A program made the translations under genes and the position numbers. Shown here piece by piece: positions 17,994-44,184 of a stretch of DNA of 52,191 bases. The first letter of the stretch is position 1, and every line of letters begins with the position of its first letter. A model generated the notes under the pieces. It saw nothing but the letters and a program-made list of their open reading frames with translations, ran no database searches and had not been told where the DNA came from. Source of the stretch: Alienimonas chondri (lineage in GTDB: Bacteria; Planctomycetota; Planctomycetia; Planctomycetales; Planctomycetaceae); the NCBI RefSeq assembly GCF_013036045.1, contig NZ_WTPX01000018.1, positions 1 through 52,191 of the forward strand. Direction: 5' to 3'.

Positions 17994-18013
17994 TGCGGAC
18001 GCCGGTGAGCGGG

Positions 18014-18040
18014 GCGCGCCGCCTGTCGGCGACGGCGAAG
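18014..18040. repeat. Solitary half copy of palindrome family 2
   Basis: GCGCGCCGCCTGTCGGCGAC plus GGCGAAG, close to the right arm of the palindrome at 22586-22658 and to 16732-16757. Lies just upstream of moeA, with no partner arm beside it. Confidence 0.7.
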
Positions 18041-18096
18041 TGGGGGAGCCGCGAAAGGGTACCCGCCGCCGAGAGGAAGCTCAGTCGTCGTTGGTA

Positions 18097-18408
18097 TCAG
18101 TCCTCGCTGATGAACTTGCAGAAGCGGCTGACGGAGCCGTCGCTGGTGTGTTCCTGATAGAGGAACTGGACGCCGGCGTCGTCGAATTTCTCGAAGAACT
18201 CGTCCCAGGTGATGCGGTGCAAACCGCTGTCGGGGGTGTTCGGCTGTTCCTCGGAGGGATCTTCGAAGTCGATCCGCAAGATGCCGGGGTCGCCGCCTTT
18301 GCTCTCTGTGTCCGCCACGGTCGCCGGGTAGCCCTTACGGCTCTCGGCCCAGTTTTTGATGGTCCCGTGGTCGGTGGTCGTCTTCGATTCGTGGTCGGTG
18401 GAAGCCAT
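18097..18408 (-). CDS. Small soluble protein of the family often misannotated '1,4-alpha-glucan branching enzyme'
   Basis: 103 residues from the ATG at 18408. Sequence features are DHGTIKNWAESRKGYPATV near the N-terminus, GILRIDFEDPSEE in the middle, and ITWDEFFEKFDDAGVQFLYQ then SRFCKFISED at the end. This pattern of IKxWAExRxGxPATV followed by WDEFFEKFD recurs in a small protein family that databases often label a branching enzyme, although it is far too short and has no GH13 motifs. The function is unknown. The frame continues upstream to 18507, but that part is low complexity. It is divergent from the first signal peptidase gene. Confidence 0.8.
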   Translation of the reverse strand: MASTDHESKTTTDHGTIKNWAESRKGYPATVADTESKGGDPGILRIDFEDPSEEQPNTPDSGLHRITWDEFFEKFDDAGVQFLYQEHTSDGSVSRFCKFISED

Positions 18409-18525
18409 TGGTGGTGATGGAGGTGGTGAAGCGCGATGGGGGATACGGGGGCGTTGTTCAGCGAATCGCATGCCGATCGGGACAGGTGGTCGCTGAGCGA
18501 CCGACACCGGATTCGCCCGCTCAAA

Positions 18526-18554
18526 CGCTGCGAGCGTCCCGGACGCTCGCAGCG
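18526..18554. repeat. Perfect 14-bp inverted repeat with 1-nt centre
   Basis: CGCTGCGAGCGTCC (18526-18539) is followed after one base by its exact reverse complement (18541-18554). It sits in the divergent region between the small protein and the first signal peptidase gene. Could be a DNA-binding palindrome or a transcript hairpin; no T-run follows. Confidence 0.7.
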
Positions 18555-18621
18555 TCCCGAGACGCTGCGTTTCACGAGACGGGTTCCCCGCGGTTCCGGC
18601 GTCGAACTACACTGGGAACTG

Positions 18622-20412
18622 ATGACCGGTCCGCCCCCGCCGCCGCCGACGCACCAGTCCACGGTCCCGCGACAGCGACGGCGAACCGTCGGCCTGGGGC
18701 AGCGTGGTGGTTGGGCGGTGACGACCCGCAGCGTGGCGGACGCCCTTGCCCTGCTGGCGGTCGCGGTGATGGTCGCCCACGCCTTTCTGGTCGAGGGGTA
18801 CGTCATCAGCAGCGGATCGATGGCCCCGGGGCTGTTCGGCTATCACAAACGGGTCGTCTGTCCAGCCTGTGCGCTCACGTTCGCTCGCGGGGTCACCTTC
18901 GACGGCTCGGTTTCTGCCGGGAAAGGGGGCGGCCGGGTCACCGCCGACGAAGACGGAGGCACGGAGCCGGCGACGCTCGCCCATTGCCCGAACTGCGGGC
19001 AGGCGGAGATCGACGTTACCGCCGCCCCGGATACGCAGGGCGACCAGTTGCTCGTCTTGAAGCACGCCTTCGCGTGGCGTCACCCCCGGCGGTGGGAGGT
19101 GGTCGTGTTTCGTCACCCCGACGACGCTCGACAGGCGTATGTGAAGCGGGTCGTGGGTTTGCCGGGCGAATCGGTGCGGGTCGCCGGCGGGGACGTCTGG
19201 GCGAACGGGGAACTCTGCCGCAAGCCGCTCGCGACGCAGCGGGCCGTCCGCATCCCGGTGTTCGATCCGAACTTCGCCCCGCAGGAGATCGCGAACGGGG
19301 CCGCAGAGCCGAACGACGACCGCGAACCGCGGTGGGCCGGCGAAGGCTGGACCCGGAGCGAAACCCCCGCCGACGGCGTGCGGTTCGAGACGACGTCCGC
19401 CGCCGCGGAGGGAGAGACCGAAACCGACTGGGCCAGACTGAGATACCAGCACGTACTCGCCGCGGGGGGCGTGCACGAGACCGCCGTGACGATCGACCCG
19501 CCGCCGCGTCGGTTCTCTTGGGATAAGCCGCGGACGCCGGTGTCTTTCGACTTTGATCCGGGGACGAACACGCTTTCCTGCCGCGGCGTATTGACGGAGG
19601 CCGACCGCGTTCGCCTGCGGCGGTTCTCCCGCGATCCGCGGTGGCGGAACGCGGTCGAGGAACTGGCCGATCGCAGCCGGTTCGCCCCGATCACCGATGA
19701 CTACGGCTACAACCGCACCTCCGACCCGCGGTTGGCGGCCCGCGTGCGGGACTACGCGTTGAGCGCCACGGTCGATCTGTCCGGCGACGCGGACGCGGCC
19801 GTCGGTCTGCAACTCACGGACGGTCACAACGTCTTCCGGCTGATCGCCGACCGGGCCCATCGCGATCGGTTCCCCACGGGCACGCTGGCGCTGTTTGAAC
19901 TGGACGCCCGCGGGCGCCCGCTCGGTTCGGCCCGCAGGGCCGTCGCGTTGCCGGCCTCGGTCGCGCTGGGGCCGGTCGAGGTGGAGTTCAGTCTGTTCGA
20001 TCGACAGGCGGTCGCGGCGATCGACGGGATTCCGTCCTTCGCCGCCGTGCCGTTCGAGCGCCCGGAGGACGCCCCGCCGCCGGACCACCGCCCCGCGGTC
20101 GTCGGCGCCCGCGGCGCCGTGAGCCTGAGCCACCTGATGCTTTACCGCGACGTGCACTACACCCGCGGTCGCGGCGTGCACGGGGTCGAGGAGGACTACC
20201 GCTTGAACGACGGCGAACTGTTCGTGCTGGGCGACAACAGCCCGGTCAGCCTGGACAGCCGCGGCTGGACCGACGGCGCCGTGCCGGAGCGATTGCTGGT
20301 CGGCAAGCCGTTCGTCGTGCACCTCCCCAGCAAGCCCGGCACGCTGAGTTGGGGGGATTCCTCCACCACCGTCCGCATCCCTGATCCGTCGCGGATTCGG
20401 TACGTTCGCTAA
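18622..20412 (+). CDS. lepB: Signal peptidase I, very large, zinc-ribbon-like insert (copy 1)
   Basis: Membrane serine/lysine protease that removes signal peptides. One membrane segment precedes catalytic Ser66 in SGSMAP; catalytic Lys175 is in YVKRVVGLPGES; the conserved C-terminal box VLGDNSPVSLDSRGW is near residue 532. At 596 residues it is roughly twice the usual length. Extra parts are CPAC (80-83) and CPNC (122-125), a possible zinc ribbon between the catalytic residues, and about 300 residues (about 210-510) that look like a beta-sandwich. The ATG at 18622 is chosen because the upstream frame is repeat-rich and uninformative. A paralogue follows 122 nt downstream. Confidence 0.9.
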   Translation: MTGPPPPPPTHQSTVPRQRRRTVGLGQRGGWAVTTRSVADALALLAVAVMVAHAFLVEGYVISSGSMAPGLFGYHKRVVCPACALTFARGVTFDGSVSAGKGGGRVTADEDGGTEPATLAHCPNCGQAEIDVTAAPDTQGDQLLVLKHAFAWRHPRRWEVVVFRHPDDARQAYVKRVVGLPGESVRVAGGDVWANGELCRKPLATQRAVRIPVFDPNFAPQEIANGAAEPNDDREPRWAGEGWTRSETPADGVRFETTSAAAEGETETDWARLRYQHVLAAGGVHETAVTIDPPPRRFSWDKPRTPVSFDFDPGTNTLSCRGVLTEADRVRLRRFSRDPRWRNAVEELADRSRFAPITDDYGYNRTSDPRLAARVRDYALSATVDLSGDADAAVGLQLTDGHNVFRLIADRAHRDRFPTGTLALFELDARGRPLGSARRAVALPASVALGPVEVEFSLFDRQAVAAIDGIPSFAAVPFERPEDAPPPDHRPAVVGARGAVSLSHLMLYRDVHYTRGRGVHGVEEDYRLNDGELFVLGDNSPVSLDSRGWTDGAVPERLLVGKPFVVHLPSKPGTLSWGDSSTTVRIPDPSRIRYVR

Positions 20413-20434
20413 CCTGCCGGCCGTTGCGAGAATA

Positions 20435-20509
20435 GAACCGCGACCGTCAGGGAGCCGGCTCGTTCCGGACGCGAACCTCCCAGAGCCGCCTCCCTGACGG
20501 TCGCGGTTC
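20435..20509. repeat. Perfect 20-bp inverted repeat between the signal peptidase genes
   Basis: GAACCGCGACCGTCAGGGAG at 20435-20454 and its exact complement at 20490-20509 enclose a 35-nt loop. The arms resemble those at 29450-29491. It could act as a processing or attenuation hairpin between the two genes. Confidence 0.9.
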
Positions 20510-20534
20510 CAACACCTCTCCCCCACGCTCCGCC

Positions 20535-22571
20535 ATGACGAAACCGGACACGGACGCCGCCGCATCGCCCGAGAAGCCGCCCAAAAAGGACGGCACGCGG
20601 GAGACGATGGAGTCCATCGTGATCGCGTTCGTGTTCTGCTTCCTGTTCAAGACGTTTGAAGCGGAGGCGTTCGTCATCCCGACCGGGTCGATGGCGCCCA
20701 CGCTGTACGGTCGGCATAAGGACGCCGTCTGCCCCGGATGCGGGTTCGAGTGGGCCGTCGGCGCCAGCCAGGAGGTGGACGACGCCGGCTACCTGCATTC
20801 CTTCGACCCCGACGGCATTCGCGGACCCAAACCGCCGGAACCCAGTTCCCGGGAACGGGTCCACTCGGCCAAGTGCCCGAACTGCAATCGGCCGGTGAAC
20901 CTCGCCCCGCTGCCGCCGTTCGCGGGGGATCGCATCCTCGTCAACAAATGGCCCTTCTTGCTGGGCGAGCCGGAACGCTGGGCCGTGACGGTCTTCAAAT
21001 TCCCGGAGAGTCCGACCACCAACTACGTCAAGCGGTTGGTCGGCCTGCCGGGCGAAACGCTGACGCTGCGGCAGGGCGATCTGTATCGGATCGTCGGCCG
21101 AGAAAACGGCGCCGGCGCCGCGGAGATGTTGCGGAAAGAACCGGCGAAGCAGCGGGCGATGACGCTGCCGGTCTATGAACACGCCAAGCCGGCCCCCGAA
21201 CTGCTCGCCGCCGGCGTGCCGGAGCGATTCGCCCCGGTTCGCTATCGCGGCGAGAGCGCCGGCCCGGGGGCGGTCGCCGGCTGGGTCGAGGACGCCACCG
21301 GCTGGTCCGCTCTGCCGGAGGCCCGCGCCCTCCGCCTGACCCCCGGCGCCGGCTCGGGCGGCGGTTCCGACGGCGCCCCGGACGACCAGTGGGATTGGGT
21401 TCGCTACCGTCACTTCCGCCCGACCGCGGAGCAATGGCGGCAGGTCGCCGACGGCGTGCCGGTCAACGACGTCACCCCCAAGCTGATCCTCGATCACTGC
21501 GCCTACAATCCGGACACCCTCCAGCCGGACGGCGCTTTCTGGGTGGGCGATCTGGAGATGGCGCTGGAACTGGAACTCTCGGACGTCGCCGACGGGGCCG
21601 GCGTGCTGCTGGAACTCGTCGAGGGCGACCGCACCTACCGCTGCCGGATCGATCCCGGCACGGGGCAGGCGACGCTGAGCTACTACGACACGCTCCCTGG
21701 CGCCGAGCAGGCGGCGGAGGCGTCCGACGGGCGGCTTGATCCGATCGAATCGACGCTCGCCGAGGGGGCGACGGAGATCTTCGGTCCCGGCGAGTACGAA
21801 TTGGTCTTCGCCAACGTGGACGACGCCCTCACCCTGTGGGTGGACGGCGACCCGATCGAATTCATGCCCGCCGGCGGAGGCGAACCGGTCGAGCAAACCC
21901 TCTATCCGCCGTACGCCGCGACAAGCGTGCAGGAGCCGACCGACCGCGACTTCACGCCCGCCGGGTTTGCGGTGAAGAACCTGACCGCCCGGGCCAGCGA
22001 GATGACGATCCGCCGCGACCTCTACTACCGCGGCAGCTTCCGAGACCCGAACGACCTCGGTCCGGTGGTGCGGAAGACGGACTCGCTGGGCCGGAAACTG
22101 GAGTTCGACGACGTCGAGACGGGCCGGTTGAGCGAACTGGCCTCGCTGGCCGACCAACCGGCCGCCTACGCCCGCCGGTATCGCAGCACGCTGCTGGCGG
22201 ACGATCCGCGGGTGAACCGTCGGGTGTACGAGATGACGCTCGGCCCGGACGAGTTCCTGATGCTCGGCGACAACAGCCCCAGCAGCCTGGATAGCCGCCT
22301 GTGGTCGAACACCCGCGGCGCCCCCCGCCGCCACGCCGTCCCCCGGGAGGCGCTGGTGGGGACCGCCTTCGCGATCTATTGGCCGCACGGCGAACCGTTC
22401 TGGTTCGCGGATGACGACGGCGTGACCCGCGGCTGGGCCGCCGACTGGATCCCGGGCCTGAACCGCTGGTTCTACCACGTCGGCACCGACGGCCGGATCG
22501 TCCCCAGCTACCAGGAACACGGCGTCCCCTTCCTCCCGAACTTCGCCCGCCTGTTCCAGCGGATTCGGTAG
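20535..22571 (+). CDS. lepB: Signal peptidase I, very large, zinc-ribbon-like insert (copy 2)
   Basis: Paralogue of the preceding gene, 678 residues. The first 20 residues are charged, then one membrane segment (SIVIAFVFCFLFKTF), catalytic Ser52 in TGSMAPTLYG, CPGC (66-69) and CPNC (114-117), catalytic Lys166 in YVKRLVGLPGET, and LGDNSPSSLDSRLW near residue 576. A large insert (about 190-560) contains two stretches resembling a LamG/laminin-type sandwich (ELELSDVADGAGVLLELVEG; YELVFANVDDALTLWVDGDP). Both copies keep all catalytic residues, so neither looks decayed. Specialisation for different substrates is inference. Confidence 0.9.
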   Translation: MTKPDTDAAASPEKPPKKDGTRETMESIVIAFVFCFLFKTFEAEAFVIPTGSMAPTLYGRHKDAVCPGCGFEWAVGASQEVDDAGYLHSFDPDGIRGPKPPEPSSRERVHSAKCPNCNRPVNLAPLPPFAGDRILVNKWPFLLGEPERWAVTVFKFPESPTTNYVKRLVGLPGETLTLRQGDLYRIVGRENGAGAAEMLRKEPAKQRAMTLPVYEHAKPAPELLAAGVPERFAPVRYRGESAGPGAVAGWVEDATGWSALPEARALRLTPGAGSGGGSDGAPDDQWDWVRYRHFRPTAEQWRQVADGVPVNDVTPKLILDHCAYNPDTLQPDGAFWVGDLEMALELELSDVADGAGVLLELVEGDRTYRCRIDPGTGQATLSYYDTLPGAEQAAEASDGRLDPIESTLAEGATEIFGPGEYELVFANVDDALTLWVDGDPIEFMPAGGGEPVEQTLYPPYAATSVQEPTDRDFTPAGFAVKNLTARASEMTIRRDLYYRGSFRDPNDLGPVVRKTDSLGRKLEFDDVETGRLSELASLADQPAAYARRYRSTLLADDPRVNRRVYEMTLGPDEFLMLGDNSPSSLDSRLWSNTRGAPRRHAVPREALVGTAFAIYWPHGEPFWFADDDGVTRGWAADWIPGLNRWFYHVGTDGRIVPSYQEHGVPFLPNFARLFQRIR

Positions 22572-22585
22572 TGCTCCGGCGCCCC

Positions 22586-22658
22586 CCGCTTCGCCGTCGC
22601 CGCTAGGCGGCGCGCGCCGTCGCTGGACGCGCGCCGCCTGCCGGCGACGGCGAAGCGG
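22586..22658. repeat. Palindrome family 2, full copy: 31-bp arms, 11-nt loop
   Basis: The arm beginning CCGCTTCGCCGTCGCCG (22586-22616) pairs with 22628-22658 with two mismatches. It lies between the second signal peptidase and the membrane-protein array and is unlikely to be coding. Half copies occur at 16732-16757 and 18014-18040. Confidence 0.9.
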
Positions 22659-22697
22659 AGAACCCGTCAGAGCGATCCGCCCGATACGCTGGCCCGT

Positions 22698-23750
22698 ATG
22701 AGCGCCGAGGACCGCCCGCAAACTGCGTTCTCCCGCCTCCGCCGAACCGCGGCGACGCTTGCGCGGCCGTTCGTGTGGGTCGCCGCGGCGGTGGGGCTGG
22801 CGCTCGCCGCGGTTCCGCCGGTGCCGAACCGCTACGAACTGGCGGCGGGGCGCTGGGCCGCCCCGCCGGTGCGGGCGTCCGTCACGTCGTTCTCTCAGTC
22901 CGATTGGCACCCGGCCGCGGTAAAGGTCGAGGCGCTCGGCGGGAAGATCCCCGGGGATCTCGGCGAAGAGGTCGATCGAACGTGGGCGCCGCCGCACGCC
23001 GGCTTCACATGGTCTCGCCGATGGATCATGCCGCGGGAATGGTTCCATCGGGACTTGAGGTCGCGCATTCACCGCGAAAAACTCGGCTGGCATGAACGGA
23101 CCGAGGCGGAGGAGCGAGCCTGGGTCGATGCGGTCACGCCGCGGTTCCGGTACATCGTGACGTTCAGCGTCTGGACGTTGCTGCTACCGGCGGTTCTGTG
23201 GGGCGGCTGGCGAATCTTTCGGCCGGCGCCGGTCCGGCCGGCGGGGTTGGCTCGCCGGATGCTTCGGCCGTGGGTCTGGACGATGGCCCTGCTGGGCGGA
23301 TCGGCGATCGTGGGTGAGTTCGCCGACGCATGGGGACCGGAGCGGGCGCCGGAGATGCAGGTCGGCGGACTGATCGGCCCGGCGGAAACGCCCCATCCGC
23401 GACTCGTGACCGTCGATCTCGCCTGGCCGACCGCCGCGGCCGATCCCCCGAACGAGCAAACCGCCTGTCCGCAGTGGGGCGTGTGGTGGAGTTGGTCTCG
23501 ACAGCGGCGCGGCGGCTTTGGCTTTGGCGGCGGCGGACTCGGCGGCGGCGGGATGTTCAGCCTGCCGCCGGTCTCCAACCAATTCGGCGGCGGAATGGCC
23601 GGCGGCCTGGGCGGGGGAGCGGGCGGGGCTGACCTTCGGCGCAAGCTCTCTCTGAAGTTCAGTCTCTGGTGGCTGCTGCTGCCGGCGGAACTGGCGAATC
23701 TCGTCACGCTGTACCGCAGTCGGCCGAGACACGCCACGGTTGCCCGATGA
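22698..23750 (+). CDS. Multi-pass membrane protein, tandem array member 1
   Basis: Not recognised. 350 residues. The N-terminus (DRPQTAFSRLRRT) is followed by a membrane segment at about 20-42 (PFVWVAAAVGLALAAVP), an extracytoplasmic-looking loop, segments at about 150-172 and 192-212 (LRPWVWTMALLGGSA), a second soluble loop containing a Gly-rich stretch at about 280-320, and a final segment in KFSLWWLLLPAELANLVTLY before a basic tail. The N-terminal, RPWVW and SLWW motifs recur in the next three genes. Its stop overlaps the next start in an ATGA. The ATG at 22698 matches the N-terminus of member 2. Confidence 0.75.
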   Translation: MSAEDRPQTAFSRLRRTAATLARPFVWVAAAVGLALAAVPPVPNRYELAAGRWAAPPVRASVTSFSQSDWHPAAVKVEALGGKIPGDLGEEVDRTWAPPHAGFTWSRRWIMPREWFHRDLRSRIHREKLGWHERTEAEERAWVDAVTPRFRYIVTFSVWTLLLPAVLWGGWRIFRPAPVRPAGLARRMLRPWVWTMALLGGSAIVGEFADAWGPERAPEMQVGGLIGPAETPHPRLVTVDLAWPTAAADPPNEQTACPQWGVWWSWSRQRRGGFGFGGGGLGGGGMFSLPPVSNQFGGGMAGGLGGGAGGADLRRKLSLKFSLWWLLLPAELANLVTLYRSRPRHATVAR

Positions 23751-24691
23751 GCGCCCACGACCGCCCGCAGACCGCGTTCGCTCGGCTGCGGGGGGCGCTG
23801 CGGATCGCGCTGGCCCCGTTCGTTGGGACGCTCGCGGCGATCGGGCTGCTGCTGGCGACCTTCCCCGCCGGGCCGATGCCGCCGACCGGCACGCCCGGCG
23901 TGCATCCGCAGATCTGGCGCTGGGGACCGAGCGGCCCCACGCTGGCAGTGGTGAACGAATGGGGGGACTTCGACGTCGCGATCAGCGGGCCGCGGCTGAC
24001 GAGCGAGTCTCCGAACGAGCGTTGGTCCTGGTGGCGCACGGATGACGCATTGATTCTCGCCGCGTCTTGGGGATCGCCCGCCGGGACACTTCTGCCGCAC
24101 GATCGCAGTGCGACCACGCTGCAGGCCGGCCCGCTCGGTCTACTGCTGCTTACTCTGCCGTTCGCGCTGCTGTGGTGGGCGTGGCTTGCCTGGCGGCGCT
24201 CAGAACGCACGGCGCCCAGCGCGGCGACGCCGATTCGCTCCGCCCTCGCCGCGGCGGCGCGGCCGTGGGTCTGGTCGGCCGCGGCGCTGGGGGCGGTCTG
24301 CCTGTACGGCTACAACGAGACGATCCGGTCGGATGAACCGCTGCTGGTCGCGGTGCAGGCCGGCGCCGCGGGGGAGGATCACGCCGTCGCCCATCGCCGA
24401 CTGCTGCGGCTCACCGTCGCCCGCACCTTCGACCCGCCCCGCCCGCCGGACACGGTCGGTCCGTGGGAGTGGGGTTCGCACGCCGCGGGGTTGCGGATGG
24501 AGGGCGAGCTGATGGGCGTCGCCCAGATGGCCGACCACGGCGGCCGGTTCTACGGCTGGCCGAACCTCACCCACACGACGACCTGGCTGAGCTTGTGGTG
24601 GCCGCTGGCGATGGTCGCGATCTGGTCCGCGATCGCCGGCGCCGTCACGCTGCGGGGCATTCGCCGAGAACCTCCGGAGAGAGCTGCTTGA
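23747..24691 (+). CDS. Multi-pass membrane protein, tandem array member 2
   Basis: Function unknown. 314 residues from the ATG at 23747, set by the ATGA overlap with member 1 and by the matching N-terminus (DRPQTAFARLRGA). Segments: APFVGTLAAIGLLLATFPAG near 22-42, LGLLLLTLPFALLWWAWLAW near 130-150, RPWVWSAAALGAVCLY near 173-188 and LSLWWPLAMVAIWSAIAG near 281-298. The loop between segments is Trp-rich (WSWWRTDD). The stop overlaps the start of member 3 (TGATG). Confidence 0.75.
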   Translation: MSAHDRPQTAFARLRGALRIALAPFVGTLAAIGLLLATFPAGPMPPTGTPGVHPQIWRWGPSGPTLAVVNEWGDFDVAISGPRLTSESPNERWSWWRTDDALILAASWGSPAGTLLPHDRSATTLQAGPLGLLLLTLPFALLWWAWLAWRRSERTAPSAATPIRSALAAAARPWVWSAAALGAVCLYGYNETIRSDEPLLVAVQAGAAGEDHAVAHRRLLRLTVARTFDPPRPPDTVGPWEWGSHAAGLRMEGELMGVAQMADHGGRFYGWPNLTHTTTWLSLWWPLAMVAIWSAIAGAVTLRGIRREPPERAA

Positions 24692-25671
24692 TGACCCGCG
24701 ACGATCATGCCCGGCAGACGCCGGCTCGTCGGTTTGCTCGTTTGCTGGGGGAACTGCTCCGGCCGTTCGCCTGGATGTTCGCCGCGATCGGGGCGGCGCT
24801 GATCGCCTTCCCGGCGGGGCCGATGTGGTCCGCGGAGAGCGACGAGGATTGGACGGAGAGTCGCGTGCAGGTGAGCATCGACGAGGGCCGGTACCTGTTC
24901 GCTTGGGGGGGACTTGCAGCCGGGGAGCCATGGTCGCCGCACCTGCGGGCGGTGTCGGTGACCGTTTTCGGCGATCCGATGGATGAGAACGCCGGTCCCG
25001 AACGGCAGGGCGACGCATCCCACTCCGGGGGGAGCGCGATCGGGGGGTGGATCTGGATTGTCGCCATGATGGAGCGGGGCGGAGTGTCGACCTATCCCGT
25101 CACCGAGGACAGCGCTCGCGGCACGATGCATCGGACCTACGACGCCGCGATCAGCCTGTGGCCGCTGGCCCTCCTGTTCATCGCGATCGCGGCGGTCCGC
25201 TGGCGCCGGCGGGTCGGGCGAACTCCATCGACGGGAGCGTCGCGGTTCGAAGCGGTCTGCCGTGTCGCGCGCCCGTGGATCTGGTCGGCGGCGGGCATCG
25301 GGGCGTTCGTCACGGTCGTGCAGTTCCTCCCCGTCGGTCCGGGGTATGCGACGGCGAGCGTCAATCGCGGCCCCGTCGAGACGCGGCACCCGCGGGTTCT
25401 GGAGGCGAGCATCGACTGGATCTCACCCCCGCCGGAGTGGATCGACGAAGGGGGGACGAGAACGGCGGCGGCGACCGGGGCGGGGCTGTGGTTCTCGCAC
25501 GAGAGGTCGACTCTGCCCCGCATCGTCTCCAACCCCGTTTGGCAGGGCCGAACCGTGGTCGGCCTCAGCCTGTGGTGGTTCGCTTTCGTCGCGCTGCTGG
25601 CGAACGGCGTGACGCTGTGGCGGATGCGGCGGCGGGGAGAACCGGACGCTGACACTGCTCGTTCCAGTTAG
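24691..25671 (+). CDS. Multi-pass membrane protein, tandem array member 3
   Basis: Function unknown. 326 residues. The ATG at 24691 shares its A with the previous TGA stop. Conserved marks: RQTPARRFARLLGE, then LLRPFAWMFAAIGAALIAFPAGPM (about 23-46), PLALLFIAIAAVRWRRRVG (about 155-173), ARPWIWSAAGIGAFVTVV (about 193-210) and LSLWWFAFVALLANGVTLWRMRRR at the end. It is the closest of the four to member 2 by these motifs. Adjacent to member 4 with a one-base gap. Confidence 0.75.
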   Translation: MTRDDHARQTPARRFARLLGELLRPFAWMFAAIGAALIAFPAGPMWSAESDEDWTESRVQVSIDEGRYLFAWGGLAAGEPWSPHLRAVSVTVFGDPMDENAGPERQGDASHSGGSAIGGWIWIVAMMERGGVSTYPVTEDSARGTMHRTYDAAISLWPLALLFIAIAAVRWRRRVGRTPSTGASRFEAVCRVARPWIWSAAGIGAFVTVVQFLPVGPGYATASVNRGPVETRHPRVLEASIDWISPPPEWIDEGGTRTAAATGAGLWFSHERSTLPRIVSNPVWQGRTVVGLSLWWFAFVALLANGVTLWRMRRRGEPDADTARSS

Positions 25672-25672
25672 C

Positions 25673-26494
25673 ATGAGCCGTCCCGATCGATCCGCCGCTG
25701 CCCCTTCGCGCCCCTCGCCGTTGACCACCCTCGCCCGCCTCCGCCGCCCGGCCGTCGTGCTGGCGGAGAGCGTCGCGGTCGTGCTGGCGGCGATCGCGGT
25801 GACGGTCGTGCTGTTCGCCACGGGGGCGGAGCAGGGAACGACGGCGTCGATCACCGGGACCGACTGGCGAGCCGCGGGCGCAATCGCGACGCGCGATCTG
25901 TCGGTCTCGATCGTCACGCAGCGTGCGACGCCGCTCCTCATCACTGATGATTCCGGTTCGATGCGGCGGAGCGCGTTCGAGTGGGAGGACGGCTGGCTCG
26001 GGATACGGGTCTGGGCGTACCGGTACAGCGGCGGCGAGCGGACATGGAAAGGGGCTTCCGTTCCCGTCTGGTTCCTGCTCGGGGCCGGGCTGGCGGCCGG
26101 GGCCGTGCGATTGATCTGGGGAGCGACGCATGGGGCGACCCGGGAGCGGCCGGACCGTTCCCCGACGTGGCGGTTGGCCCATCGCACGGGGCGAATCCTG
26201 CTCTGGTCCGCGGCGGCGCTGGGGGCGGCATTGGTGATCATCCCGCATCCGGACGCCTCCGGCTGGTCGGCGGGGCTGTGGGTGGAGCGCCGCTGGGATT
26301 TTCTGAGCGGGAACACCTACCCCCAACTCTTCTGGGGCGCCGACGCGAACGGCGAACGCTTCATCCTGCTGTGGCGCTGGTTGCTGGCGGCGCCGGCGGC
26401 GGGAATCCTCGTCGCGGTGGCCCGCTTCGTGGGGTCGAATTCGGCGGCGGCGGGGGAAGAATCAGAGAATGTCGCTCTCACGAAGGATCACTGA
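25673..26494 (+). CDS. Multi-pass membrane protein, tandem array member 4 (most divergent)
   Basis: Function unknown. 273 residues. N-terminal LTTLARLRRPAVVLAESVAVV leads into a membrane segment (about 25-48), then a soluble loop, a second segment at about 124-142 (VWFLLGAGLAAGAVRLIW), a third in RILLWSAAALGAALVII and a fourth near 234-250 (LWRWLLAAPAAGILVAV). The order matches members 1-3, but the RPWVW motif is reduced to LLWSAAALGAAL and the SLWW end to LLWRWLL. It ends the run; a palindrome follows. Confidence 0.7.
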   Translation: MSRPDRSAAAPSRPSPLTTLARLRRPAVVLAESVAVVLAAIAVTVVLFATGAEQGTTASITGTDWRAAGAIATRDLSVSIVTQRATPLLITDDSGSMRRSAFEWEDGWLGIRVWAYRYSGGERTWKGASVPVWFLLGAGLAAGAVRLIWGATHGATRERPDRSPTWRLAHRTGRILLWSAAALGAALVIIPHPDASGWSAGLWVERRWDFLSGNTYPQLFWGADANGERFILLWRWLLAAPAAGILVAVARFVGSNSAAAGEESENVALTKDH

Positions 26495-26525
26495 GACTCG
26501 GAACGGAGGCGACGCGTGGACCGTC

Positions 26526-26578
26526 CGCTTGCGGTTTCGCGGCGCCGACAGCTCTCGGGCGCCGCGAAACCGCAAGCG
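26526..26578. repeat. Palindrome family 3, full copy: perfect 21-bp arms, 11-nt loop
   Basis: The left arm 26526-26546 (CGCTTGCGGTTTCGCGGC...) is exactly complementary to 26558-26578. The gap 26495-26650 holds nothing else obvious. Related sequences are at 38840-38895 (palindrome) and 42046-42070 (half copy). Confidence 0.92.
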
Positions 26579-26650
26579 AGAAGCGTAGCGCGAACAGCTG
26601 CCGAACCCGTTCGGAATTCTCATACCGCCCCGCCGCTCGCCTTGGGATTC

Positions 26651-27439
26651 ATGGCCGCATCGCCCCCCACCTCTCGATTCCTGCGGTGGGGGTTCCGGCG
26701 GTATCTGCTGGGCGGGTTCCCGTTCGGTCGGGGGATGCTCGCTCGGAACTTCCACGCCGTGCGATTGCTGGAACCGATCCCCGTTCCGTTTGACGACGGC
26801 GGACCGGGCGGTCCGCGGGTCTTCTATTTGAATCACCCTGGTTGGTGGGATCCCTTGGCGGCGGCGGCGTTGGCGGCGTACCTCGTTCCGTTTCGCACGC
26901 CGTACGCACCGATCGATGCGGAAGCGCTTCGGTCGATCCCCTGCGGGCGGGCGCTGGGGCTGTTCGGGGTGGAACGCGACGCTGCGGCCGGCGCTCGCGC
27001 CTTCCTGCGAGGCGCCACGGCCGCGCTGACCGACCCCGCGGCCGATCTGTGGCTCACGCCGCAGGGGACGTTCGCCCCGCCGGAGCGGCGGCCGATCACC
27101 TTCGCCCCCGGATTGGGACACCTGCTGAGCCGCAATCCGAGGCTGACCGCCGTGCCGGTCGCCGTGCGGTACGACTTTTGGAGTGAACGTCGCCCCGAAC
27201 TCCTGCTGGCGGTCGGCGAGCCGGTGCGGCGAAGCGACGTACCGACGGCGGACGACACGTTGGGGCAAGGGACGCCGCGAAGCGAGGCGCGGGGGGACGC
27301 CCCCGTGCGATCCGGGGAGTGCTCCCGGTTCCTCGAGGGGCGTTTGGAGGACATTCTGAGTGAACTCTCCGCGGCGTCGGCGGACCGTGATCCGGGTCGG
27401 TTCCGTCCGCTGCGGTTCGATGGAAACGCCCGGTCCTGA
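26651..27439 (+). CDS. Lysophospholipid acyltransferase-fold protein (CruD/CrtO-like, probable carotenoid or glycolipid acylation)
   Basis: 1-acylglycerol-3-phosphate acyltransferase fold, 262 residues. The catalytic HX4D motif is HPGWWD (His62, Asp67). The usual FPEGTR block is replaced by LTPQGTF near residue 140, a variation I associate with members acting on non-phospholipid acceptors. The ATG at 26651 is chosen because the frame upstream crosses the palindrome at 26526-26578. The gene lies 27 nt before a membrane glycosyltransferase, a pairing found in glycosyl-acyl carotenoid pathways; the substrate here is inference. The C-terminal part (about 205-225) is low complexity and looks like inserted repeat sequence (27262-27320). 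Confidence 0.75.
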   Translation: MAASPPTSRFLRWGFRRYLLGGFPFGRGMLARNFHAVRLLEPIPVPFDDGGPGGPRVFYLNHPGWWDPLAAAALAAYLVPFRTPYAPIDAEALRSIPCGRALGLFGVERDAAAGARAFLRGATAALTDPAADLWLTPQGTFAPPERRPITFAPGLGHLLSRNPRLTAVPVAVRYDFWSERRPELLLAVGEPVRRSDVPTADDTLGQGTPRSEARGDAPVRSGECSRFLEGRLEDILSELSAASADRDPGRFRPLRFDGNARS

Positions 27440-27466
27440 CCGTTCACCCCCGCACTCCGGTTCGCG

Positions 27467-28786
27467 ATGCCGACGTTCGCCCCGCCGGAGACCGCTCTCG
27501 ATTGGCTCGCCTGGGCCTGTTTGGCCTGCGCGGCGCTGCCGGCCGCATTAACAGCGCTGAACCTGCCGGCGTTTCGATCGCCGCGGCGGAGAGGGAACGG
27601 GGCGCCGCCGCGGGTGTCGTTGCTGATCCCGGCTCGGAACGAAGCGGGCGGGATCGGCGAGTGTCTGCACGCGGCGTTGAGCAGCGAAGGGGTCGATCTG
27701 GAGGTGGTCGTGCTGGACGATCACTCGACCGACGGCACCGCGGAGATCGTCGCGGAAGCGGCCCGCGAGGACGGTCGGGTTCGACTCGAACAGGCGCCGC
27801 CGCTGCCGGCCGGGTGGTGCGGGAAGCAGTGGGCCTGCCGCACGCTGGCGGCGCGGGCGGACCGCTCCCGGGAGCTGCTGTGCTTCATCGACGCCGACGT
27901 GCGACTTGCCCCGCACGCCCTCCGCACGCTGTGCGATGAACGGGCGCGGCGGAATGTGGGCCTGCTGGGCGGGTTCCCCCGCGAAGCCTGCGGGACGGCG
28001 ACGGAGGCGGCGGTGATCCCGCTGATCCACTTCGTCCTGCTGGGGTTCCTGCCGATCGCTGCGGCGCGTCGGTTGCGCGGCCCGGCCTGGGCGGCCGGCT
28101 GCGGGCAGCTTTTCCTCACGACCCGCGACGCCTACGAGGCCGTCGGCGGGCATGACGCGGTGAAATCGAGTTTGCACGACGGGCTGACGCTCCCCCGCGC
28201 GTACCGGGCCGCCGGGCAGACGACCGACGTGGTCGACGCGGCGGATCTCGCCGTATGTCGGATGTATCACGGCGCCTCGGAGACCTTCGCCGGGCTGGCG
28301 AAGAACGCGACCGAGGGCGTCGCGGCGCCGGGGCTGATCGGGTTCTTCACCGTCGTGTTGGGTTTGGGGCAGGCGGCGCCGCTGCCGTTGCTGATCGCGG
28401 GGGCCCTGGGGGCGATCACGCTTTCAAATGGGTCGATCGCGGCGCTGCTGGCGGCGGCGGGGCTGTCGTTCGGCACGCGGGCGGCGCTGGCGCTTTCCTA
28501 TCGGCAGCCGTGGCTGGGGGTGGCGCTGCATCCGTTCGGGGTCGCGTTCTTCCTGGCCGTGCAGTGGTACGCGCTGGGGCGAAAGCTGTTGGGCAAACCG
28601 GCGGCGTGGCGGGGGCGGAGCTACAGCCCGGACCTCGTCCCGGCGCCGGACGCCGTCCCGCGGAGCGAACCGACTCGTTCGCCCCTTCCGACCGCGCCGC
28701 GGCCGCGCGAGCTTCGGCCGACGCACCGACCGGCGGCGTCGTTCTCGGCATCTTCCCGACCCGGAGTCTCGGCGCCCGCCCGGTGA
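27467..28786 (+). CDS. Family 2 membrane glycosyltransferase (CruC/CrtQ/HpnB-like)
   Basis: Inner-membrane GT2 enzyme, 439 residues. One membrane segment at about 10-33 precedes the GT-A domain: VSLLIPARNEAGGI, VVVLDDHSTDGT, PLPAGWCGKQWAC and FIDADVRLAP (DXD-type metal site). Several membrane segments follow at about 280-380, with a basic, Pro-rich tail. The PAGWxGKxWAC motif is characteristic of the hopanoid/carotenoid-associated GT2 group. With the preceding acyltransferase this suggests glycosylation and acylation of a C30 carotenoid or similar lipid, but no desaturase or phytoene synthase-like gene is in the window to confirm it. Confidence 0.8.
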   Translation: MPTFAPPETALDWLAWACLACAALPAALTALNLPAFRSPRRRGNGAPPRVSLLIPARNEAGGIGECLHAALSSEGVDLEVVVLDDHSTDGTAEIVAEAAREDGRVRLEQAPPLPAGWCGKQWACRTLAARADRSRELLCFIDADVRLAPHALRTLCDERARRNVGLLGGFPREACGTATEAAVIPLIHFVLLGFLPIAAARRLRGPAWAAGCGQLFLTTRDAYEAVGGHDAVKSSLHDGLTLPRAYRAAGQTTDVVDAADLAVCRMYHGASETFAGLAKNATEGVAAPGLIGFFTVVLGLGQAAPLPLLIAGALGAITLSNGSIAALLAAAGLSFGTRAALALSYRQPWLGVALHPFGVAFFLAVQWYALGRKLLGKPAAWRGRSYSPDLVPAPDAVPRSEPTRSPLPTAPRPRELRPTHRPAASFSASSRPGVSAPAR

Positions 28787-28885
28787 AGAATGAGCGGGCG
28801 GCCCTACAGTAACGGCGTACACCGTTCGCGAAGCGGGGCGATCCCTCCATTTGCGGCTCCTTTCTAATCTCACCACACGCCCGCC

Positions 28886-29392
28886 ATGACTTTCTGGAAA
28901 CGCAATATCCTGCCCGAGGCAGACGCCCAAACCGTCTGCTCGGCGCTGCAAGAAGTGCTCGTCTCCCTGATCGACCTCGGTCTGCAGGGCAAGCAGGCGC
29001 ACTGGAACCTGTTCGGGCCGAACTTTCAGAGTCTGCACGAAAAGCTGGACGCGATCGTCGAGACCGCCCGCCTGACCAGCGACGAAGTCGCCGAACGCAT
29101 GAACCAACTCGGCATCGCCCCGGACGGACGGCGGAACACCGTCGCGGAGAGCAGCCCGCTGGCGAATTACTCCTCCGACTTCGAACCCGTCCCGCAGGCG
29201 CTGCACCTCATCGGCGATCGTCTGCACACCGCGGTGGAGACGATTCGCACCGCCCGGAAGACCGTCGCCGACCCGGACCCGATGACCGAAGACCTGCTGA
29301 TCGCCGTCAGCCAGCAGGTGGAAGAGCACCTCTGGATGATCCAGGCGATGGAGCACGAAGTCGGCGCCGGGGAGCCGTCGAAGCTGCCGTAA
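28886..29392 (+). CDS. dps: Dps family ferritin-like protein
   Basis: Dodecameric DNA-protection and iron-storage protein that oxidises Fe(II) with hydrogen peroxide. The inter-subunit ferroxidase ligands are all present at family spacing: His39, His51, Asp55, Asp66 and Glu70 (in KQAHWNLFGP, LHEKLDAIVE and TSDEVAE). At 168 residues it is full length. The ATG at 28886 is the only sensible start. It is probably monocistronic, with a hairpin 58 nt downstream. No OxyR/Fur box could be recognised upstream by eye. Confidence 0.93.
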   Translation: MTFWKRNILPEADAQTVCSALQEVLVSLIDLGLQGKQAHWNLFGPNFQSLHEKLDAIVETARLTSDEVAERMNQLGIAPDGRRNTVAESSPLANYSSDFEPVPQALHLIGDRLHTAVETIRTARKTVADPDPMTEDLLIAVSQQVEEHLWMIQAMEHEVGAGEPSKLP

Positions 29393-29812
29393 GTCGACAG
29401 GACGCCGGGGGCCGGCCGGACGTCGGCTCTCTGCCAGACAAACGCTGAAGAACCGCGATCGCGGGGCGACGTGCCCCGTCGGTCGCGGTTCCACTTTTGC
29501 GGGATCGACGAGCCGCACGGCCCGCACGGGTTCTCCAGCCGTTTGCGGCCCCGTGGCATGCGGATCTTCGCTATTTTGCCCGATCGGACCGAAAGCGGCC
29601 GCACGTCTTCGGGGGCGACGTACTTTTGCCGGCTGACGGATCGAACGACGCGAACGCATCCCGAGGGGACGCGACTCACGGCGATCGGCGCCGCAGCAGG
29701 GTGTCCCGGGCCGGACGCCGTGCGGACGTTCCGCACGGTCTGCCGGCCTACCGCGGCACGTCCCGGAGGGGTCTGGGGCCGCCGTTTCAAACCGATTACT
29801 GGAGAGTCCCCC
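29393..29812. other. 420-bp gene-free region between dps and the Flp pilin
   Basis: Contains the hairpin at 29450-29491 and the presumed pilin promoter and leader. The frame of the pilin is open upstream to 29471, but that stretch has no start with a leader-like translation and no domain-like sequence. I saw no convincing sigma-54 or other promoter consensus. Confidence 0.6.
29450..29491 (+). terminator. Hairpin downstream of dps, possible terminator
   Basis: GAACCGCGATCGCGGGGC and GCCCCGTCGGTCGCGGTTC form an imperfect stem with a very short loop, followed by CCACTTTTG. The arms share the GAACCGCGA core with the palindrome at 20435-20509, so it may be a repeat-derived terminator. Confidence 0.55.
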
Positions 29813-29998
29813 ATGAGCAACTTCCTGACCAGCGTCAAGACCTTCCTCGAGACCGAGGACGGCCCCACGGCGGTCGAGTACGCCGTCATGCTGGCCCTCA
29901 TCCTGGTGGCCTGCATCGCCACGGTCCAGACGCTGGGCACCAGCGCCAACTCCAAATTCGAAGAGATCAACGGCTACCTCGGCGGCGGCGCCGAGTAG
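29813..29998 (+). CDS. flp: Flp/TadE-type pilin (type IVb)
   Basis: Small pilin, 61 residues. The charged leader ends in EDG, followed by PTAVEYAVMLALILVAC; cleavage after Gly17 puts the conserved Glu at +5 with Tyr at +6, as in Flp pilins. The rest is one hydrophobic helix and a short tail. Such pilins polymerise through a Tad apparatus into adhesive pili. GGAGAG lies upstream of the ATG. No CpaA/TadV peptidase, CpaF ATPase or TadB/C gene is in the window, although a secretin gene follows at 30303. Confidence 0.92.
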   Translation: MSNFLTSVKTFLETEDGPTAVEYAVMLALILVACIATVQTLGTSANSKFEEINGYLGGGAE

Positions 29999-30083
29999 TG
30001 CGATCGGGCCGCCCGAGCGGCCCTGGCTGGCGACGCTGCGTTCACCGCGGTGCACCGTAAGCCTTCCGTCCTGCTGAGTAACG

Positions 30084-34529: not shown

Positions 34530-35648
34530 TCAGGTCGCCTCGTCGCCGAACCCCTCGTCGATCGGCCGCCCCAAGTGTCCCCGCAGCCACCGAATCAACC
34601 CGTCCCGCCTCGGGCACCGCGGCGACGGACCGTAGTGAACCGTCAGCGCCTGCGTCCGCTTCGCGCCCAGATCCGCGGCGGCCTGGTCCGTGAGGAACAC
34701 GGCGGCGGCGTAGGTGGAACCCTCCGAGTCGGTGCGTTTGTCGATCCCCACGCGTTCCACGCCGGCGAAGGGGACGGCCAACCGCTTGCGGCGGCCGAGG
34801 CTCATCGGCAGGGCGAGCAACTCCTGGTCCGGGTCGATCACCAGATCGTACACGCCCGTCGCCCGCCGCCGCGTCACCCCGACGGCCCCCCCAATTCCCG
34901 CGGCGGCCGCGATCAACAGCGCCGTCGCCGGAACCCAGAGCGGCGGCCGGGAACCGTACGTGAAGGAGATGGCGAACACCTCGATCAGGGCGACGCCCCC
35001 CGCCCCGATCGCCCCGGCGACGAACGGCGGATATGGGGCCAGCGGCGCCCGGATCAAGCGTCCGTCGTGGACCGTCGGCGGCGGCTCGGCGGCTCCCGTC
35101 GAGGCTCGGCTCTGCTGAATCCGAATTCGGAGGAACCGCACGGCCACGGCGAGCATCGCGGCGAACGGCACCGCGAACAGCGCTGCGAACAGCTGCGTCC
35201 CGGTGACGCCCGGGGCCAGCAAGCTGTTCTTCGGGTCGGCCGGGTCGTAATGCACGGTGACGACCGTGTTCGGTCGCAGCGCTTCGGCCCGTCGGCGGTA
35301 CCAGTCGCGATCGCCGCTTTTCGGGGAGTTCGCATCGTACCGGGCGCCGAGGTACTTTCGTCCGCCGACCTGGTAGGCGTAGGAGAGGTCCAGCGAATAA
35401 GTCGGTCCGTTGTCGCCGCCCGGGTGGGCGATCACCCGGCAGTCGATCACCCGACCGAGCGTCTCCGCAAACCCGAGACTGCGGACCGCCAGCCGGTAGT
35501 TGGGCAGCACGCCAACGGCGAACGCGATCAGAAAGATCGCCCATCCGAGCAGCCAGAACGCGACGATCGCGAACTGTCGCCAATCGCCCCGCCCCGCCGG
35601 CGGGACGCTCTCCAAGGACTGCGGGTCGTTTGATTCGCGTTCGGTCAC
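34530..35648 (-). CDS. DUF3592 membrane protein (copy B)
   Basis: 372 residues from a GTG at 35648, chosen because it lies 32 nt beyond the aminotransferase stop and precedes the first conserved segment. A membrane segment (AIVAFWLLGWAIFLIAFAVG) leads into the DUF3592 domain (about 55-150: GRVIDCRVIAHPGGDNGPTYSLDL, VTVHYDPADPKNSLLAPGV), a further membrane segment, two more near 215-260, then a C-terminal soluble domain with VYDLVIDPDQELLALP. Function unknown; the family is widespread in planctomycetes. Closely parallels the gene at 37666-38790 in order of parts. Confidence 0.75.
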   Translation of the reverse strand: MTERESNDPQSLESVPPAGRGDWRQFAIVAFWLLGWAIFLIAFAVGVLPNYRLAVRSLGFAETLGRVIDCRVIAHPGGDNGPTYSLDLSYAYQVGGRKYLGARYDANSPKSGDRDWYRRRAEALRPNTVVTVHYDPADPKNSLLAPGVTGTQLFAALFAVPFAAMLAVAVRFLRIRIQQSRASTGAAEPPPTVHDGRLIRAPLAPYPPFVAGAIGAGGVALIEVFAISFTYGSRPPLWVPATALLIAAAAGIGGAVGVTRRRATGVYDLVIDPDQELLALPMSLGRRKRLAVPFAGVERVGIDKRTDSEGSTYAAAVFLTDQAAADLGAKRTQALTVHYGPSPRCPRRDGLIRWLRGHLGRPIDEGFGDEAT

Positions 35649-35680
35649 GGCGTCGGGAACGTCAGGGGGACGACGGCGGT

Positions 35681-36874
35681 TCACAGCCCGCGGTCGAGTT
35701 CTTCCTCGACCGCCGCGATCAGCCAGTCGATGTGGGCCGGCGTGGTGTAGAGGTGACAGGAGACGCGGATCTGCCGCCGGCCGCCGCGATGGACGACGGG
35801 AATCTCGATCCGGTGCCGTTCCCACAGGGCTTTCTGCAGCGGATCGCAGTCGCCGTGGCCGACTTTCGGCGTGCCGGCCGGCGGATCGGGCAGGGCGGCG
35901 GGGGCCATCGGCAGGCGGCGCCCCTCGGGAAACCGCGGTCCGAGCGGCGGGAGACCGGTGAGGGCGTTCAACCGTTCGACCGCCGCCCCCGCCAACCCGG
36001 CGGAGTGGGCGCGGAACGCTTCGAGGCCCGCCTCCTCCAGCACGCGAATCGCCGCGGGGATCGACAGGAACGGGCTGGGGTCCGGCGTGCCGGGCCAGCG
36101 GAAGTCGTCCCGCCAGTCCGGCGAACGACCGGAGACGCTGCCGCCCCAACTCGCGACCAGCGGCGCGAACCCCTCGCGGCGCTGCGGGGCGATCCACAGG
36201 AACCCGCTGCCGAACGGGGCGCTCAGCCACTTGTGACACCCTGCCGTGTACCAGTCGCAGCCGAGATCGGCGATCCCCTCGCCCGGCCGCTCCAGCGGCA
36301 GCGCCGCGATCGCGTGCGGCCCGTCGACGGCCACCGGCACCCCGCGTTCTTTCGCCCCCGCACAGATCCGCTGCACCGGCAAAATCGCGGCCGATTTGCT
36401 GGTGACGTGGGAGACGACCAGGACTTTCGTCCGCGGCGTGATCGCGGACAGCACGTCCGCGGCGACGCCCTCCGCATCATCCAGCGAGGCCCGAATCGGA
36501 GCGGAGATCACCTTCGCCCCGACCGGCTCGGCCCGCTGTTTCCACAGGCGGAACACGGCGCCGTACTCGTGGGAGGTCAGCAGAACCTCGTCGCCCGCCG
36601 CCAGCGACAGGTTGTGAGCCACGAGGTTCATCCCCGTCGTCGAGTTCGACACCGGCACGATGCCCCCCGCGTCGGCGCCGACGAACCGCCCCAGCGTTTC
36701 GGCGGCGGCGTCCAGTTCGTCCTCCAAGCGACGGACGAAGAAGTCCATCGGCTGGCTCGCCAGTTCGCGGCTCCACCGTTCCCGTTCCGCCAACACCGGC
36801 TCGGAGGTCGGCCCGAACGAACCGTGGTTCAGGTAAATGACGCCGGGGCGTATCGGCCAAGCGGGAACGTTCAT
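35681..36874 (-). CDS. Class V aminotransferase (isopenicillin-N-epimerase-like)
   Basis: PLP-dependent enzyme of the cysteine desulfurase/aminotransferase class V fold, 397 residues, full length. N-terminal YLNHGSFGPTSEPV is the usual epimerase-like opening; VDGPHAIAALPL (Asp184) contacts the cofactor and Lys215 in WYTAGCHKWLSAP is the Schiff-base lysine. The substrate is not predictable; planctomycete members are annotated as epimerases without evidence. It sits between the Coa1-like gene (61 nt upstream) and DUF3592 copy B (32 nt downstream), all on the minus strand, so it may be co-transcribed. Confidence 0.9.
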   Translation of the reverse strand: MNVPAWPIRPGVIYLNHGSFGPTSEPVLAERERWSRELASQPMDFFVRRLEDELDAAAETLGRFVGADAGGIVPVSNSTTGMNLVAHNLSLAAGDEVLLTSHEYGAVFRLWKQRAEPVGAKVISAPIRASLDDAEGVAADVLSAITPRTKVLVVSHVTSKSAAILPVQRICAGAKERGVPVAVDGPHAIAALPLERPGEGIADLGCDWYTAGCHKWLSAPFGSGFLWIAPQRREGFAPLVASWGGSVSGRSPDWRDDFRWPGTPDPSPFLSIPAAIRVLEEAGLEAFRAHSAGLAGAAVERLNALTGLPPLGPRFPEGRRLPMAPAALPDPPAGTPKVGHGDCDPLQKALWERHRIEIPVVHRGGRRQIRVSCHLYTTPAHIDWLIAAVEEELDRGL

Positions 36875-38790: not shown

Positions 38791-38839
38791 CATAGCGGAG
38801 GATACGTCCTCGAATCGCCCGCGGTTCACGAACGTAAAA

Positions 38840-44091: not shown

Positions 44092-44184
44092 GCGAGCCGG
44101 GGGGCTTGTCCCCCCGGACCGGGCAGAGATTCGCGTTCGGTTCGCTGCGTTCGCCGGGCCGGGGGGATGAACCCCCCGGCTCGC
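44092..44184. repeat. Palindromic element: 26-bp arms, 41-nt loop
   Basis: The arm GCGAGCCGGGGGGCTTGTCC...GG (44092-44117) pairs with 44159-44184 with three mismatches. The loop includes TTCGCTGCGTTCGC, like the loop at 1953-2050. Lies between convergent genes. Confidence 0.85.

Follow-up and report, generated by a model that had tools for sequence, protein, structure and literature searches.

What kind of gene family fills the four-gene array at positions 22,698 to 26,494 of a 52,191 nt stretch of Alienimonas chondri DNA (contig NZ_WTPX01000018.1, hereafter the window)? The initial annotation, made from the sequence alone, described a tandem array of an unrecognised membrane-protein family, formed by local duplications with diversification of the exposed loops and perhaps tied to two unusual signal peptidases immediately upstream. 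Comparison of the genomes of A. chondri LzC2 and A. californiensis CA12, of a genus within the Planctomycetaceae, leads to a tentative reading that we hold with a little less than even confidence: the array would be one locus of a dispersed, fast-turnover Alienimonas family built on a doubled unit, in which a membrane scaffold carries variable exoplasmic loops.

Homology and the repeated unit

The four genes abut on the same strand with the lengths originally given (Table 1), members 3 and 4 being separated by a 1-base gap. Members 1-3 carry the RPW(V/I)W and (F/L)SLWW motifs as described, except that member 2 has PFVG in place of the PF(V/A)W attributed to all three; in member 4 the motifs are worn, as had been noted, their counterparts being GRILLW and ILLW. 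Identity to member 1 in the alignment is 29% for member 2 and 32% for member 3. Pairwise local alignments of members 1-3 outscore whole-sequence shuffles by 9.9 to 18.2 standard deviations. Shuffling within 20-residue windows, a local control that keeps hydropathy in place, gives a margin of 10.3 to 18.9, and under either scheme none of 200 shuffles reached the observed scores.

Member 4 is joined to the others through profiles. In pairs with members 1-3 it scores only 1.3 to 6.9 standard deviations above whole-sequence shuffles, its score with member 2 being equalled by 24 of 200. However, a profile of member 4 and its A. californiensis ortholog (53% identical, with an N-terminus that still reads DDRPLTPFARLRR) matched the other 11 two-unit proteins with a score of 77.1 (probability 97.0), against 37.1 for the best of 60 block shuffles. 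Similarly, with a hidden Markov model (HMM) from which member 4 was excluded, E values were 9e-10 for the ortholog and 2e-6 for member 4 itself (with Z set to 5000; composition bias was high). The match of the member 4 pair profile to the five proteins of the C286 and FtsH sites alone was weak (probability 37), and member 4 was unlisted by two unit profiles (A5 and A6) built without it. By these sequence comparisons the four members are confirmed as one paralogous family, with a similarity that goes beyond shared hydrophobicity.

The two-unit proteins have a common order by hydropathy: transmembrane (TM) segment, loop, TM segment, basic linker, TM segment, loop, TM segment, some of the TM segments being marginal. 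The internal duplication that this order appears to reflect had not been noted in the initial annotation: each array protein reads as two copies of one unit, consisting of a TM helix, an exoplasmic loop and a second TM helix. Profiles of the N- and C-terminal halves of 12 proteins matched one another with probability 96.9 (E 1.9e-10, score 66.0), against scores of 13.1 and 13.7 for reversed controls and 22.8 for the best of 60 block shuffles; with disjoint subsets of proteins the probabilities were 95.0 (131 columns) and 90.4 (28 columns only). Furthermore, single-unit relatives are present in both Alienimonas species, matching the C-halves with probability 97.5 and the N-halves with 95.2, and the five single units group together (99/95) when all 31 units are placed in one tree.

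Net charge points to cytoplasmic ends and linker with exoplasmic loops, on the positive-inside pattern: across 13 two-unit proteins the cytoplasmic segments carry +13.9 per 100 residues, and the loops -2.7 and +1.2. The likely ancestor is a single unit about 144-156 residues long, which would have comprised a basic cytoplasmic N-terminus, a TM helix with LPW or RPW, an exoplasmic loop, a TM helix with WWL..P or SLWW and a basic cytoplasmic end. Internal duplication would then have given rise to the two-unit, four-helix form found in the window array and in 13 of the 18 intact copies.

Two results weigh against this account. The unit tree is weakly supported: a branch sets the C-halves apart from the remaining units in 70% of bootstrap trees, and the N-halves in only 2%. 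The single-unit proteins could thus instead have arisen from two-unit ones that lost a half. Two AlphaFold models, obtained from the four window sequences, were also poor (predicted local distance difference test scores of 40.3 and 39.6); they place a helix at each of the four TM segments, and additional helices with short strands in the loops.

Distribution and turnover in two genomes

Stepwise profile growth yielded a census of ten intact family genes and a relic in A. chondri and eight intact genes and a relic in A. californiensis, with reading frames open in all 18. These lie at 11 sites, of which ten hold intact genes and the other just a relic (Table 1); flanking genes were named from Pfam where they matched.

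Table 1. Array members, other family loci and neighbouring features in A. chondri and A. californiensis
Feature	Genome	Position or site	Strand	Details
Member 1	A. chondri (window)	22698..23750	+	350 aa, two TM-loop-TM units
Member 2	A. chondri (window)	23747..24691	+	314 aa, two units; 4-base ATGA overlap with member 1
Member 3	A. chondri (window)	24691..25671	+	326 aa, two units; 1-base overlap with member 2
Member 4	A. chondri (window)	25673..26494	+	273 aa, divergent two-unit form, short second loop
C286 array	A. chondri	between riboflavin synthase-type gene (ribE site) and nucleoside-hydrolase-like gene (by eye, no Pfam match)		three genes
C201	A. chondri	between FtsH and FTR genes		one gene; further open reading frame (ORF) between family gene and FtsH
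C312 and C321	A. chondri			one single-unit gene each
Signal-peptidase site	A. californiensis			two genes
FtsH/FTR site	A. californiensis			one gene
S4-adenylate kinase gap	A. californiensis	between ribosomal protein S4 (rpsD) and adenylate kinase (adk)		one gene
ABC gap	A. californiensis	between ABC ATPase and ABC-2 permease		one gene
Single-unit genes	A. californiensis	near 4434, 2320 and 3642 kb		
Second large signal peptidase I-like protein	A. chondri (window)	18619..20412	+	597 aa as read, PF10502
Large signal peptidase I-like protein (signal peptidase 2)	A. chondri (window)	20535..22571	+	678 aa, PF10502; 82% identical in A. californiensis
Hairpin	A. chondri (window)	22586..22658		31-nt arms, 94% complementary; between signal peptidase 2 and member 1
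Acyltransferase-like ORF	A. chondri (window)	26516..27439	+	PF01553 16.9 bits, below cut-off 23; downstream neighbour in both species

The flanks of nine of the 11 sites could be matched between the species, 1.5 kb either side being examined where a flank was found by search. Intact members stand in both species at two of these nine: the signal-peptidase site, with four genes in A. chondri and two in A. californiensis, so that copy number beside the large signal peptidases does vary in another genome as had been predicted, and the FtsH/FTR site, with one gene in each. Six sites hold intact members in one species only. Where A. chondri has three genes at the ribE site, A. californiensis retains a C-terminal remnant. 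Four sites are occupied by one gene in A. californiensis and empty in A. chondri: the gap between the S4 and adenylate kinase genes, that of the ABC pair, and the positions downstream of a secretin-N gene and next to a BD-FAE/cytochrome gene. The reverse holds next to a beta-lactamase/BNR gene, with one family gene in A. chondri and none in A. californiensis. The ABC ATPase and permease genes, for instance, adjoin directly in A. chondri, whereas a family gene lies between them in A. californiensis. The ninth site lies downstream of an ORF of 368 codons; it retains only a remnant in A. chondri and is empty in A. californiensis. Of the two unmatched sites, that of C321 has flanks giving only 55% and 61% matches far apart, and that near 2320 kb has a neighbour without a match in A. 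chondri. The A. chondri assembly is a draft of 355 contigs, so that a gene missing there might in principle reflect faulty assembly.

The A. chondri relic is a C-terminal TM remnant of 31 codons (C312:41403-41498, E 6e-7). The ribE-site stretch of A. californiensis is likewise taken as a relic: earlier profiles matched it at E 7e-4 and 0.02, and the reading frame in this gap, compared with each of the three C286 proteins, aligned at their C-terminal ends and scored 63, 56 and 74, values reached by no shuffle of the 500 run for each, while the other two + strand frames stayed at chance level. Against this stands the refined unit HMM, which gave only E 2.6 (best stretch 8.1). The remnants, one per species, comprise little more than the last TM segment of a family gene (L079:3122-3235 and L077:2901-2993). 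A faint match in the rpsD-adk gap of A. chondri (E 2.5) was unconvincing on reading and was not counted. In nine regions scanned for repeat pairs none was common to the family copies, as compared by eye, and no transposase was recognised by eye. One single-unit member of A. californiensis adjoins a 1,090-codon ORF with a GSGKT stretch (L092:3696-6968), which had no Pfam match at 1e-5 and whose last 260 residues had no match in A. chondri; this region is possibly an island.

The initial annotation had attributed the array to local duplications. In a tree of the two-unit proteins the firm groups (100/99 or better) were the member 4 pair, the FtsH-site pair and the C286 trio. Member 1 groups with the protein neighbouring it in the A. 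californiensis signal-peptidase site (83/92), and member 2 leans, not firmly (82/91), towards the proteins of other loci in the FtsH/C286 group. A clade of members 1-3 exclusive to A. chondri was marginally rejected by the approximately unbiased (AU) test (p-AU 0.037), a result that the long branches call for treating with caution; a recent local burst is hence unlikely on these trees. An older local duplication, before the species split and followed by loss, is possible, because the wider clades keep p-AU values of 0.22 to 0.46: 0.24 for members 1-3 with the A. californiensis protein, 0.46 for members 1 and 3 with that protein and 0.22 for all six proteins of the signal-peptidase site together. 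Copies would have been duplicated both locally and to unrelated sites, and often lost.

Profile searches of planctomycete genomes, of the kind that the same annotation had suggested, returned credible relatives only from the two Alienimonas. These were the only matching genomes at E ≤ 0.001 in overlapping sets of 59, 119 and 170 genomes, the last representing the taxonomic family. Among 392 Planctomycetota four genomes matched at E ≤ 0.005, two of which (G002 and G235) were dropped: these were the loci outside the genus inspected by reading, and the refined unit HMM gave E 0.64 (best stretch 0.19) at the former and nothing at E ≤ 5 at the latter. At lax limits, 19 of the 21 genomes with a match at E ≤ 0.1 lay outside the genus, the best being 4.7e-4 (G019) and 5.7e-4 (G040, with two internal stops), and a further profile round produced five such genomes at E ≤ 0.5; applied to 34 weak-match loci from outside the genus, the refined unit HMM gave nothing better than E 0.021. 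Within the searches made, the family is thus detected only in Alienimonas. Two considerations tell against reading this as true restriction to the genus: fast evolution can hide relatives, and the large runs scored 10-39 candidates per genome, so distant relatives may be missed.

The description of the family as unrecognised held up in five protein libraries (three searched with part of the members or by profile), none of which provided a match. No member of 18 exceeded the curated Pfam cut-offs (weak matches below them, at E 0.01-0.5, occurred for P0003 and P0014) and none of the 14 scanned exceeded those of NCBIfam; PHROGs and PADLOC gave nothing at E ≤ 0.001 for the 10 of 18 scanned, with weak matches at 0.056-0.082 only. 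Among PDB sequences the best profile match had E 0.53, and a second search found none at E ≤ 1. Plasmids searched with member 3 and phages searched with P0014 yielded no match, and none of the papers listed in literature searches described the family. In a named genome collection, from which the window's genome and near ones were possibly excluded, no relative appeared with the five single-unit proteins, used as a single short pattern, or in a scan with signal peptidase 2.

Loop rates and alternative readings

Pooled over three pairs between the species, the ratio of non-synonymous to synonymous substitution rates (dN/dS) is 0.70 in loops (bootstrap 0.55-0.85) and 0.48 in TM segments (0.37-0.63); the corresponding values are 0.60 and 0.39 for the member 4 pair and 0.84 and 0.48 for the FtsH-site pair. 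The second loop of member 1 contains a glycine-rich stretch, at about residues 271-310, absent from the other members aligned. Overall the loops appear to change faster than the TM segments, with no sign of positive selection, no dN/dS exceeding 1. Of the claim that the exposed loops had diversified, their lower conservation stands, but diversifying selection is not shown. Several points weigh against even the difference in rates: the pooled intervals overlap; the member 1 pair shows no difference (loops 0.58, TM 0.55), and may not be a strict ortholog pair; loop alignments are uncertain, and errors in them inflate dN; and two other exported proteins have ratios of 0.54 and 0.57.

On the preferred reading, the array encodes what are probably inner-membrane proteins, in which a four-helix scaffold under purifying selection would hold two loosely constrained exoplasmic loops, these making whatever contact with the outside the protein has. 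From the turnover of copies, the proteins would seem to play a dispensable part in the envelope, specific to the lineage and adapting to the surroundings, rather than a core one. A more specific version, in which a private Alienimonas repertoire of doubled proteins moves as bare genes into the gaps of unrelated operons and uses its loops for envelope recognition or exclusion, appears improbable.

The high ratios may alternatively indicate that the proteins are nearly inert paralogs under weak constraint, whose TM helices are conserved chiefly so that the inserted protein does no harm. The loop and TM values both exceed the 0.28-0.34 of two neighbouring enzymes and the two signal peptidases, and the many copies confined to one species, together with the relics, fit such an origin; nevertheless, all 18 frames are open, two sites are kept in both species, and the TM motifs, along with an HPR in the second loop of 8 of the 13 two-unit proteins, persist across paralogs only 24-34% identical to member 1. 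We regard this as unlikely.

Somewhat further down the scale, and also unlikely, is the proposal that the family forms a conflict repertoire of membrane immunity or exclusion proteins, its loops diversifying against toxins, phage or competitors. Two-TM immunity proteins (CdiI and Imm17) and homogeneous polyimmunity loci are described in PMC3482391, and the Alienimonas family resembles them in its helix pairs, arrays and variable sequence, although in style only; a Pfam scan, which forms the basis of the comparison, gave nothing above cut-off. Tandem arrays, differences in copy number, relics and less conserved loops are in keeping with such a repertoire. By contrast, no toxin-like gene was recognised in the flanks read, much of this by eye, though orphan immunity loci would lack one too; the PADLOC scan of 10 of the 18 members was negative as above; and the rate ratios stay below 1. 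Were the loops under conflict-driven selection, they would point to a planctomycete envelope recognition system.

The supposed wide spread in planctomycetes of single TM-loop-TM proteins, with an N-terminal TM segment, a loop and a second TM segment of IPYW or VPHW type, was not borne out in our searches. That the Alienimonas proteins are a divergent branch of these is quite improbable. The layout is the same, and a consensus of that type did find one real protein, of 153 aa (G138, L097:1438-1896), which is like the single unit in its short N-terminus, TM segment, loop of about 100 residues, TM segment starting with an aromatic motif and basic end. However, the consensus matched just two of 59 genomes, the second of which (G097) showed no such protein on reading, and the real protein found only itself and one match with an internal stop in 294 genomes. 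It lacks the doubled form, and its profile, in which one sequence stood for the family, matched the unit with probability 0.65 and a score of 14.4, below the 17.4 reached by its own block shuffles, so that no profile similarity was detected in this weak test.

Finally, a role as accessory factors of the two large signal peptidases is very improbable, for although the genes are adjacent and alike in order and strand in both species, only one of the 11 family sites adjoins signal peptidases, and between these and the array stands a strong hairpin with arms of 30-31 nt, retained in both species, leaving the link originally suggested without support.

Orphan paralogous membrane-protein families typically combine narrow distribution, differences in copy number and fast change, and the present family, while new, is of this known general kind; it differs in an internal duplication whose single-unit form is still present. 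With single-unit and doubled forms and relics in two genomes, it offers a small, tractable case of an orphan membrane-protein family being born, doubled, spread and lost within a genus.

Neighbouring genes and hairpins

The two signal peptidases upstream of the array are 76% and 82% identical to their A. californiensis counterparts. Within these proteins (18619-22571, about 600 and 680 residues), the S26 profile matches two or three disjoint stretches, as though an insertion had interrupted it. At the other end of the array, the true start of the acyltransferase-like ORF is probably further in.

The stretch preceding member 1 has a folding energy of -88 kcal/mol (z -7.1), and a hairpin similar to that in Table 1 lies at the equivalent place in A. 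californiensis, with 30-nt arms that are 90% complementary. Long GC-rich hairpins with arms of 25-31 nt occur near family genes at 22586-22658 in the window, at L013:9511-9586, after 8121 in L029 and at L093:2804-2892. Comparable structures are found elsewhere in the window, for example at 20435-20509 and 44092-44184, and for this reason the hairpins are probably general intergenic elements; Rfam gave no match over 18000-30000 of the window. Two further multi-TM proteins, similar to one another and DUF3592-like by eye, are encoded in the window at 37666-38829 and within 34530-36239 (- strand).

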